Under the pieces are notes generated by a model. The model did not search any database. It was given only the letters and a program-made list of their open reading frames with translations, and had not been told where the DNA came from. The translations under genes and the position numbers were made by a program. Positions 45,629 to 48,534 of a stretch of DNA of 64,000 bases are shown here, piece by piece (the first letter of the stretch is position 1; each line of letters starts with the position of its first letter). The stretch covers positions 372,001 through 436,000 of the forward strand of contig NZ_AMPG01000001.1 of assembly GCF_000299415.1 (NCBI RefSeq). The letters run 5' to 3'. The DNA comes from Candidatus Microthrix parvicella Bio17-1 (GTDB lineage: Bacteria; Actinomycetota; Acidimicrobiia; Acidimicrobiales; Microtrichaceae).

Positions 45629-46444
45629 ATGAATGCCATCACCGTCGCCTTTGGAACCCACGACAGTTCCATCGAGCCCCTGACGTGGTCAGCCCGATTG
45701 GCCCAACACCTCGAGGCCCCGCTGCAGGTGCTGAGCATCGTTGCCCCGGTCTCAGCCGAGGCTCCTCCCGAGTTCTTCGCCGAACTGGACCAGCGCCGCC
45801 GACAGGACATCGAGCAGGCCACGAAGAACGCGGGCGCGGCGAGCGCCGACGTCGTGGTGCTCAACGAACACAAGCCTCTCGCCGCCATCGCCTCCTACGT
45901 GAACGAGCATCAGCCAACCATGTGCGTGGTCGGCACCCACGACTCACACGAACCGGGAGGACTCGGCGAGGGCAACCCCGCCCACCACCTGCTGCACCAC
46001 TGCCACGTCCCGGTGGCCATGGTCGGCCCGGGCGCCCCAACGCTGGATGGAGGGGTCTTCGTGGTCGGGGTGGAGGCAACCGGCGACCCGTCGCCGGCGC
46101 TTCAATTGGCATCGACGTTGGCGTCGGCTACGAACGGGACCGTGCATGCGGTGCACGCCTACGAATCGCTCAGCGAGGACGAGGCCGAGCGTTGGCGCCA
46201 GATCGAAGCCGACCTGGCGGGCGGCGTCGCCGCACCGCTCAAGTTCTTCCCCACCGCAGGCCATCCGGCACAGGTGATCCTGGAACACGGCGATGCCCAT
46301 GACGCCGCCGCCATCGTGACGGGCACCCGTGGCAGCGGCGGGTTTGGGGGTCTGATTCTCGGCCGGGTTCCAGCCCAGCTTCTGAGCCACGCCAACCGTC
46401 CCTTGATCGTGGTGCCGCACCCAGCAGCGCGGAGCAACACCTGA
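45629..46444 (+). CDS. Universal stress protein with two UspA domains
   Basis: A 271-residue protein preceded by GGAGGG with a good spacing. Two Usp domains are visible: residues 1-135 (ITVAFGTHDSS ... PTMCVVGTHDS ... HHCHVPVAMVG) and 145-270 (FVVGVEATGDPSPAL ... AAIVTGTRGSGGFGGLILGRVPAQLL). The second has the ATP-binding G-x2-G-x9-G[ST]-like GTRGSGGFGG stretch; the first is degenerate. The small gene that follows, 30 bases later, probably belongs to the same transcript. Confidence 0.88.
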   Translation: MNAITVAFGTHDSSIEPLTWSARLAQHLEAPLQVLSIVAPVSAEAPPEFFAELDQRRRQDIEQATKNAGAASADVVVLNEHKPLAAIASYVNEHQPTMCVVGTHDSHEPGGLGEGNPAHHLLHHCHVPVAMVGPGAPTLDGGVFVVGVEATGDPSPALQLASTLASATNGTVHAVHAYESLSEDEAERWRQIEADLAGGVAAPLKFFPTAGHPAQVILEHGDAHDAAAIVTGTRGSGGFGGLILGRVPAQLLSHANRPLIVVPHPAARSNT

Positions 46445-46474: not shown

Positions 46475-46771
46475 ATGCCAACGGAATCTGAAAGTAGCCA
46501 ACCAGGCGGCACCGACCAGGAAACCCTTGCCCACCACCTGGGGCACCTGGCAGCGGATGCCGACGACGTCATGGCAATGCTGACCGCACATCATGCGGAG
46601 GGTGGCGATCTTCACCAGGATGCGTTGGCCAAGACCGAGCGGTTGCAGTCAAGCCTCCATGACGTCATCCACGCGTTGACCCGCCACGAGCATCTGGCGA
46701 TGGGCTCCGATGACGTCTGGGCCATGCTGTCACGCAAGCACGACCCCAAATCGGACGATCCCATCAAGTAG
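46475..46771 (+). CDS. Hypothetical small acidic His-rich protein
   Basis: A 98-residue protein with a strong AAAGGAG ribosome site before its ATG. It is helical, with HHLGHLAADADDVMAML and a second similar helix, HALTRHEHLAMGSDDVWAML. Both end in D-D-V-x-A-M-L, so the protein may be an internal duplication. No family was recognised. It lies behind the universal stress gene, and its end overlaps the convergent selenoprotein candidate by eight bases. Confidence 0.65.
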   Translation: MPTESESSQPGGTDQETLAHHLGHLAADADDVMAMLTAHHAEGGDLHQDALAKTERLQSSLHDVIHALTRHEHLAMGSDDVWAMLSRKHDPKSDDPIK

Positions 46772-47741
46772 TACCGGGCGGCGGCATCAAATGGTCGGGT
46801 AGGTCCAATCCCAATTCTTCTGCGAGCGCCAGGCCGGCGCGGCTCACCGGTACCCCAAGGGTGTCCATCAGGCGGTTCATGATCTGAAAGTTGCCAGCGC
46901 ACCCAGCAGCCCGAACGACCGCTTCGGGCCCGGCCACAAGTTTCAGCGCCTCCCTCGCCGACCTCATCGCCGCACGATCGCGTGCGAGCGCTGCATCGGT
47001 GAACACCAACAGTTCCCGACCCCATTCAAGTTGTGAGTCCTGCGTTGGGTCGGTGACCGCGGCCAGGTTCAACGGTCGATCGGTTCGGGTGGCGCTCGCA
47101 CGGAGCATGCCGGCATGAGCGAGCAGTCAAAAGAAGCATTCGTTCAGCAGCGAGGTTCGGGCAGCCACCAACTCCATCTGGGTTCGGTGAAGTCCTCGAT
47201 GCGCATCCATGTCGCCCATCTGGTCCATCGCCAGATACAGCGCCGCATGGAGGCGGTGCATCGCCCGTTCATCGGAGGGAAGCGCGGAGAGGGCGTTGGT
47301 CGGCCAGGCACGTCCAACCGTCGGTAGCCATCCCCCGTTGTTCGTTGCTGCGGGGTCGACCTCTCCATGGGGTTCACCGTTGCCCGGCGGCTCGGTGAGC
47401 GGCCACGGGGCAACCCCGAGCGCAAAGCAAAACGTGTCAACGGCCACGGTTCTGGACACGACACCAAGGAGTTCAACCAGTTCAATGGGGGTCACTCCCC
47501 GGTCGGACACCGAGGCGATCCACTCGGGCCGAACGCGGTGTGCATCCAACGTCAAACGAGCGACGGCTTCGGCAATCACGTCAGCGGTGGAAGACGCAAG
47601 CCCATCCATCCAGATTCGGCGCGCCATGGTCGCCATAGCGGTGCGCTGAGAACTGCTGAACGAGGCGCCCGGACCACAGATCTGAGCCACCGCCTCGTCG
47701 AGCGCCAACGCCTCGGAATCCGGAACACCCAAACGGTCCAT
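46764..47741 (-). CDS. AhpD/CMD-family protein with in-frame UGA at the CxxC position (candidate selenoprotein)
   Basis: From ATG 47741 (GTG 47750 possible) a single frame of 326 codons is interrupted only by TGA at 47127-47129. Around it the protein reads TSLLNECFF-(TGA)-LLAHAGML. AhpD/CMD enzymes have C-x2-C-x3-H here, so TGA stands exactly for the second Cys (Cys202, position 205, His209). The part after the TGA ends like the family (AGCAGNFQIMNRLMDTLGVPV). A stem-loop starts three bases after the TGA. If read as selenocysteine the protein has 325 residues and would be a peroxidase-type redox enzyme. The alternative is a nonsense mutation that ends it after 204 residues. Confidence 0.75.
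47094..47129 (-). promoter_or_regulatory. Candidate bacterial SECIS-like stem-loop after the UGA codon
   Basis: Directly after the UGA the transcript can form a six-base-pair stem GCUCGC/GCGAGC (47124-47119 with 47099-47094). Inside it CAUGCCGGCAUG (47117-47106) can form a short second helix with a CCGG loop. Position and size are suitable for a bacterial SECIS, but the apical loop is not a textbook match. Confidence 0.4.
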
Positions 47742-47928
47742 CCTCAACACGGTAGGAGAAAACGCCGGAAGGCTCGCACCGAGCCGTGGACAGACCGGCA
47801 GGAACCAATCCGTCGGTGGCGCAGGCTCCGGCGATTGACGTCACGTGCCCATTGGTTCAGGATCGGAGTCGCCCCGGAGGCCGAACCCACGTCGTGACGT
47901 TCGTAGCTTGACCAAGAAGGCACACCCC

Positions 47929-48534
47929 ATGACCAGTTACGGGTTCCTGTTGTTCGACGACGTTGAGGAGTTGGACGTTGTCGGCCCATGGGAGGTGATC
48001 ACCGCATCGGCGATGCTGCGTGCCTCCGAAGGCGCCAATCCCGACACGACGGTGATGATCGCGGAGCGCGACCAACCGGTGCGCTGCGCCAAAGGCATGG
48101 TGGTGGTGCCGCATCACACCTTCGCCGATCACCCACCGCTCGACGTGATCGTGGTGCCGGGCGGGCAGGGAACCCGAACTCAGATCGATAACGCCACGTT
48201 GTTGGATTGGTTGGCTTCGGTCGGCCAAACCGCCTCGTGGGTCACCAGCGTCTGCACGGGGTCGCTGTTGCTCGTCGGTTCCGGGCTGGGCGCCGGCCGG
48301 CGCGTGGCCACCCATTGGGGATTCGAGGACACGCTGGCCGAGCGGGGCGACTGCACCGTGGTCCGGGACGCCCGTTGGGTGCGAGACGGCAACGTCGTCA
48401 CCAGCAAAGGTGTGTCCGCCGGCATCGACATGGCACTGTGGCTGATCGGCCAGATCCACGACCCGGCCCACGCCAGGGCGGTGCAGCGCTACATCGCCTA
48501 CGACCCGGCACCGCCGTATCAGGCCGACGTTTGA
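47929..48534 (+). CDS. DJ-1/PfpI family protein
   Basis: A 201-residue protein from ATG 47929. It has the class I glutamine amidotransferase-like fold of the DJ-1 superfamily: FLLFDDVEELDVVGPWEV at the start and the nucleophile elbow TSVCTGSLLLVGSGLGAG with Cys near residue 104, followed by THWGFEDTLAE. The FDDVEELDVVGP and ATHW pattern fits the isonitrile hydratase / AraC-like DJ-1 subgroup. The next gene begins at its stop codon. Confidence 0.85.
   Translation: MTSYGFLLFDDVEELDVVGPWEVITASAMLRASEGANPDTTVMIAERDQPVRCAKGMVVVPHHTFADHPPLDVIVVPGGQGTRTQIDNATLLDWLASVGQTASWVTSVCTGSLLLVGSGLGAGRRVATHWGFEDTLAERGDCTVVRDARWVRDGNVVTSKGVSAGIDMALWLIGQIHDPAHARAVQRYIAYDPAPPYQADV

Follow-up and report, generated by a model that had tools for sequence, protein, structure and literature searches.

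The analyzed window, a stretch of 64,000 nucleotides from Candidatus Microthrix parvicella Bio17-1, almost certainly carries a working selenoprotein gene of the AhpD/CMD type on its minus strand (46764-47750). From the frame, the relatives and the RNA pairing described below, we propose that SelB charged with Sec-tRNA-Sec would bind an mRNA hairpin (47106-47094) and would bring selenocysteine to the UGA codon (47129-47127). The product would be the full AhpD/CMD-type protein of 328 (or 325) residues, with a Cys-x-x-Sec active site beside the AhpD proton-relay residues Glu and His. The gene adds a member to an already known predicted selenoprotein family, and it opens no new protein class or mechanism. 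Read as a selenoprotein gene, it replaces what would otherwise pass for two truncated proteins.

The read-through frame and its relatives

Two open reading frames are found on the minus strand, one at 47127-47750 (207 aa, GTG start) and the other at 46764-47108 (114 aa). When the TGA at 47129-47127 is read as selenocysteine (residue 208 counted from the GTG), both merge into a single frame of 328 codons, which contains this one internal TGA and ends at the stop codon TGA 46766-46764. An initial annotation of the window had already described two apparent proteins in the same frame with a TGA as the sole interruption, and this description is borne out. The frames it gave were right; the end it gave, 47741, is an ATG lying nine bases inside the GTG at 47750, and it left out the strand, which is minus. 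Both starts are possible, the protein having 328 aa from the GTG and 325 aa from the ATG. Beyond the 46764 end of the gene lies a universal stress protein gene (45629-46444, plus strand), and a small plus-strand frame (46475-46771), for which no Pfam match was found, overlaps the end of the selenoprotein gene by eight bases at its own end. A DJ-1/PfpI gene (frame 47845-48534, plus strand) is transcribed away from the selenoprotein gene.

The gene was assigned to the NCBIfam family NF041238, "alkylhydroperoxidase-related (seleno)protein", on the basis of its frame, its family score and its alignment with relatives. With Cys standing for Sec, the read-through protein scored 218.7 bits against this family (cut-off 175, residues 33-311) and 28.2 bits against Pfam PF02627 CMD (cut-off 23), and a six-frame search of the gene against NF041238 gave 201.3 bits. 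The scores with the five other NCBIfam models listed for the protein were all below cut-off, TIGR01926 included. The TGA had been claimed to occupy the second redox cysteine of the C-x2-C-x3-H motif, and the segment NECFF-U-LLAH is indeed an exact C-x2-U-x3-H, that is, a CxxU with a His four residues on (C205-FF-U208-LLA-H212). Also, when 26 relatives were aligned with the window protein, residues H212, L216, S219, G274, F288, R293 and G299 showed little or no variation, in agreement with the claim that the sequence after the TGA is conserved.

The codon at the Sec column was followed among 395 genomes drawn from the same class, 73 of which contain the family over the NF041238 cut-off. Among the matches listed, 79 family places exceed this cut-off, and 71 were examined, namely 70 places in relatives and the window's own. 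The codon is TGA in 70 of these 71 genes and TGC, hence Cys, in one (L083), which settles the check, proposed in the initial annotation, of looking for Cys or Sec at this column. Each of the remaining 8 of the 79 places is listed with one TGA. The motif failed to pick up three of the 70 TGA genes, which were read separately, so that the codon statistics given below are based on n = 67. A contig scan of genomes with the window protein alone as the query confirmed no relative.

Within the same taxonomic family, where 16 of the 33 genomes miss the quality threshold (90% completeness, 5% contamination), an NF041238 gene over the cut-off was found in the window's genome only (1/33), and SelA in 5/33. 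The weaker matches in same-family genomes contain no internal TGA, and one of them has a TAG. Since the 32 other genomes give no match over the cut-off, no close relative confirms the gene.

A weaker AhpD-like match was also observed in a group of small genomes of about 0.6-1.1 Mb (f34 g89), with one in-frame TGA in each of 20 genomes among the matches listed. SelA is present in the one genome of this group that was tested (G073). These matches may represent a second AhpD-like family with Sec, found in very small genomes.

The hairpin behind the TGA

A short hairpin, GCUC-CGUGC-GAGC (47106-47094, minus strand), whose loop begins 24 nt past the TGA, is common to the 70 TGA genes and constitutes our proposed SECIS element. 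At positions 23-35, counted with the T of TGA as 0, nearly all genes follow the pattern GCUC-NG(U/G)NN-GAGC. Four pairs are formed in 64/67 genes and three of the four in the 3 others, and the three genes missed by the motif also contain the full GCTC...GAGC pattern. As the stem hardly varies, covariation of the pairs was unusable and codon choice was used instead. The Leu codon at +8 is CTC in 67/67 genes, vs. 42% CTC elsewhere in the same genes, and the Ser codon at +11 is AGC or AGT in 66/66, vs. 26% elsewhere. Codon +9 specifies Arg, Ser or Gly, always with G in the middle and with T (54) or G (13) as its last base. Codon +10 ends in G in 67/67 genes, whether it encodes Ala, Glu, Trp, Leu, Ser or Val, and this G pairs with the last C of the +8 CTC. 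The binomial p-values for these codon choices take no account of relatedness and serve as a guide only. Judged by these codons, codon choice preserves the hairpin even where the encoded amino acids differ, and the 70 TGA genes yield a clear codon-choice signature of it.

The published model of the bacterial SECIS element, as summarized in a 2026 review (PMC13188914), describes an apical loop of 3-9 nt in which one of the first two bases is a G, usually with G or U after it, an upper stem of 4-16 bp, a distance of 16-37 nt between the UGA and the loop, and an energy of -7.5 kcal/mol or lower. Using our own scripts, we found a loop of 5 nt (CGUGC), 4 bp and a distance of 24 nt in the window hairpin, all in accordance with these rules; the optional pair between loop positions N1 and N2 is C-C in the window and thus unpaired. 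Against the limit of -7.5 kcal/mol, the energy is -4.8 kcal/mol for the bare hairpin, a weak value, and -8.7 kcal/mol for the region when the first 15 nt are left unpaired, the unconstrained optimum being another stem. Across the family, the minimum-energy fold includes the three inner pairs of the hairpin in 40/67 genes when unconstrained and in 48/67 when the first 15 nt are kept single-stranded. No Rfam family matched in the window at its gathering score, nor within 47050-47180 at E-values up to 10.

That other stem (47094-47124, minus strand) pairs a 5' arm at 47124-47119 with a 3' arm at 47099-47094, i.e., bases 5-10 with bases 30-35 after the T of the TGA, and the 3' arm is the only part that it has in common with the conserved hairpin. 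It corresponds to the GC stem-loop reported in the initial annotation to start shortly after the TGA. The structure does exist, as the minimum-energy fold of the window (-12.3 kcal/mol); a SECIS role for it is improbable, as the stem is complete in only 5/67 TGA genes, the window included, and it was dropped as a candidate for this reason. The gene could nevertheless be a selenoprotein gene in which this longer stem is the working SECIS and the small hairpin serves something else. Such an arrangement would fit with the favorable energy of the stem and with the fact that a Cys relative (L102) retains the small hairpin. We consider it very unlikely, given how rarely the stem is complete among the TGA genes. 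Also, the 8 nt that follow the TGA include its 5' arm, which would be inside the ribosome with the UGA in the A site, and the small hairpin follows the published loop and spacing rules. Shuffled versions of a 59-nt segment surrounding the TGA fold about as well as the segment itself (z = -0.04). We regard the conserved hairpin at 47106-47094, and not the alternative stem, as probably the SECIS element on grounds of conservation.

As a way to other selenoprotein genes, the hairpin pattern showed no enrichment genome-wide (61 matches vs. 112 for the reversed pattern). The GT-loop pattern has 12 matches in the genome, 2 inside the window and 10 elsewhere in 9 stretches; two of the GT-loop matches have a TGA at a fitting distance and were rejected, the frame remaining open for only 4 and 5 codons afterwards. 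A scan of the window for TGA frames with a hairpin gave 6 places, and only that at 47129 was protein-like by eye. A second SECIS-like hairpin, GCTCGGTGCGAGC, is located at 47772-47784 on the minus strand, 21 nt ahead of the GTG start codon, and no TGA was seen by eye just before it. Among 31 leaders, the window's own is the only one with a SECIS-like hairpin (1/31), and this leader hairpin is perhaps due to chance.

Selenocysteine machinery and the reading of the TGA

All four genes of the selenocysteine machinery (selA, selB, selC and selD), which the initial annotation had suggested looking for, were found in the window's genome. SelA (327.4 bits), SelB (262.6 bits) and SelD (345.6 bits) are over their cut-offs, SelB being encoded close behind SelA on the same strand, and the tRNA-Sec (selC) scored 67.8 bits for a gathering score of 47. 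At least three genes of this genome present a Sec-type TGA (the gene of the window, selD and a formate-dehydrogenase-like gene). The formate-dehydrogenase-like alpha gene (L164, G000:C7:74483-77239) has its in-frame TGA in the context ARI-U-HSATV; it matches TIGR01591 below the cut-off and in separate pieces, and we take it to resemble the Sec-containing formate dehydrogenases. In selD (L017, G000:C3:23101-24048), the in-frame TGA is at the active-site position, U-A-C-K, and UxxK is the usual Sec site of SelD in a table of PMC9312934. The selD gene presents a hairpin with a GGUAC loop and 7 bp at 32 nt past its TGA, and the formate-dehydrogenase-like gene one with a GGUCU loop and 6 bp at 18 nt. 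An NGUNN-loop hairpin lying 18-32 nt past the TGA is found in 3/3 Sec-type genes identified in this genome, vs. 16 of the 1630 TGA triplets of the window (at least 4 bp); as the loop rule was derived from the NF041238 family, its independent support comes from selD and the dehydrogenase gene.

The TGA might also be a real stop, a sequencing error or the mark of a pseudogene, the two halves being remnants or separate genes. The genome is an assembly of 13 contigs, and the lack of a match over the cut-off in the 32 other genomes of the taxonomic family would suit this explanation. It is extremely unlikely, as the same TGA is present in 70 of the 71 family genes examined, although the 26 aligned relatives share only 25-41% of their residues with the window protein. 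Furthermore, the conserved residues are kept after the TGA, the frame has no other interruption, and the genes of the Sec machinery are all present. The preference expressed at the outset for recoding over mutation is thus supported by the TGA column and by the four machinery genes. That the TGA specifies an amino acid other than Sec, or is simply read through, has a next to negligible probability, in view of the complete Sec machinery, of a sole exception among 71 genes that has Cys, of a hairpin maintained behind the TGA by codon choice, and of the gene itself apparently using a TGA (46766-46764) as its stop, at the point where the relatives also terminate.

Cysteine relatives and comparison with known AhpD-like proteins

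A second contig scan was carried out with alignment A1, in which U was written as C, and with a pattern ending in Cys, so that it reaches Cys forms only. It gave 32 loci, with gene-length relatives (L102-L107) in records of Acidimicrobiia, Microbulbifer, Pseudomonadales and Bermanella; the nearest named relative of the window protein is from an Acidimicrobiia MAG. Apart from L116, which has no motif, the loci (31 of 32) contain 37 motif places, all with Cys. The strict hairpin pattern is present at 1/37 places, in the Acidimicrobiia MAG gene L102 (42% identity), which has TGC at the Sec column (L102:1016). L105 presents four pairs but a different loop, and the hairpin is absent from L083, the family gene with TGC. 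SelA was found in 10 of 14 chosen genomes, including those of L102 and L083; those without it are G190, a same-family genome without the gene, and the genomes of L103, L105 and L107.

The combination in L102 of TGC with an intact hairpin, in a genome with SelA, may be most simply read from these sequences as a recent change from Sec to Cys. The hairpin of L102 may also point to a role that does not depend on Sec. If the hairpin were a lineage-specific SECIS type, characterized by its NGUNN loop and used in unrelated selenoprotein genes of the genome, Cys relatives like L102 would be fossils of a recent Sec-to-Cys replacement; we put forward this joint reading tentatively, as possible though rather doubtful. 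In any case, L102 provides a case for testing how Sec gets lost.

AhpD-like proteins with Sec had been mentioned in the initial annotation, and the literature shows this to be right. A full-text literature search found the family NF041238 in one paper, the 2026 review, where a table of prokaryotic selenoproteins assigns it the motif CxxU and the name "AhpD-related protein (hypothetical protein 1, Sargasso Sea metagenome)" (PMC13188914). The 2005 study of the Sargasso Sea selenoproteome reported hypothetical protein 1 with a CXXU motif and mentioned it in the legend of a figure about predicted SECIS elements (PMC1088965). Hypothetical protein 1 is also listed in PMC9312934, and two AhpD-like selenoprotein families are listed in PMC2398784. 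Among the papers searched, none joined selenocysteine, selenoprotein and Acidimicrobi-.

The window protein resembles NF041238 (AhpD_rel_CFYUT) in its score over the curated cut-off, in its CxxU, in the TGA at the same column and in its similar length (328 residues vs. 357 for the profile). It differs in having CFFUL where the family has CFYUT, and profile positions 1-24 and 345-357 are unmatched. Other AhpD-like selenoproteins, given under TIGR01926, PF02627 CMD-like and NF041047 in the table of PMC13188914, have a CxxU as the window protein does; however, the latter scores 41.6 bits with TIGR01926, under the cut-off of 81.8, and NF041047 is absent among its NCBIfam matches.

Modelled singly with AlphaFold, the window protein gave an unusable structure (mean pLDDT 41.6). 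A search of the PDB with a profile of 27 family members gave AhpD-type peroxidase-related chains (2pfx, 6k40, 2oyo and others), and AhpD of Mycobacterium tuberculosis (1gu9) as a weak match (E = 0.0084). Before the core, the window protein is about 80-130 residues longer than these AhpD and AhpD-like chains, as judged from the aligned ranges. The CMD core itself shares the spacing of the Glu, the two redox residues and the His with M. tuberculosis AhpD and the AhpD-like peroxidase-related proteins. From the frame, the alignment and the published enzyme, the putative active-site residues are E193, C205, F207, U208 and H212, numbered from the GTG (47115-47174, minus strand). The proton-relay residues reported for M. 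tuberculosis AhpD are Glu118, Cys130, His132, Cys133 and His137 (PMC3141380), and E193, C205, U208 and H212 are spaced as Glu118, Cys130, Cys133 and His137. The enzyme would most likely act as a thiol/selenol peroxidase or disulfide reductase; anything more specific than "AhpD-type thiol/selenol redox enzyme" is deduced from family and active site. In this core, the third proton-relay position is Phe207, vs. His132 in M. tuberculosis AhpD and Tyr50 in PA0269, and Sec would stand, presumably for the redox reaction, where M. tuberculosis AhpD (PDB 1gu9, 1knc) has its second cysteine, Cys133.
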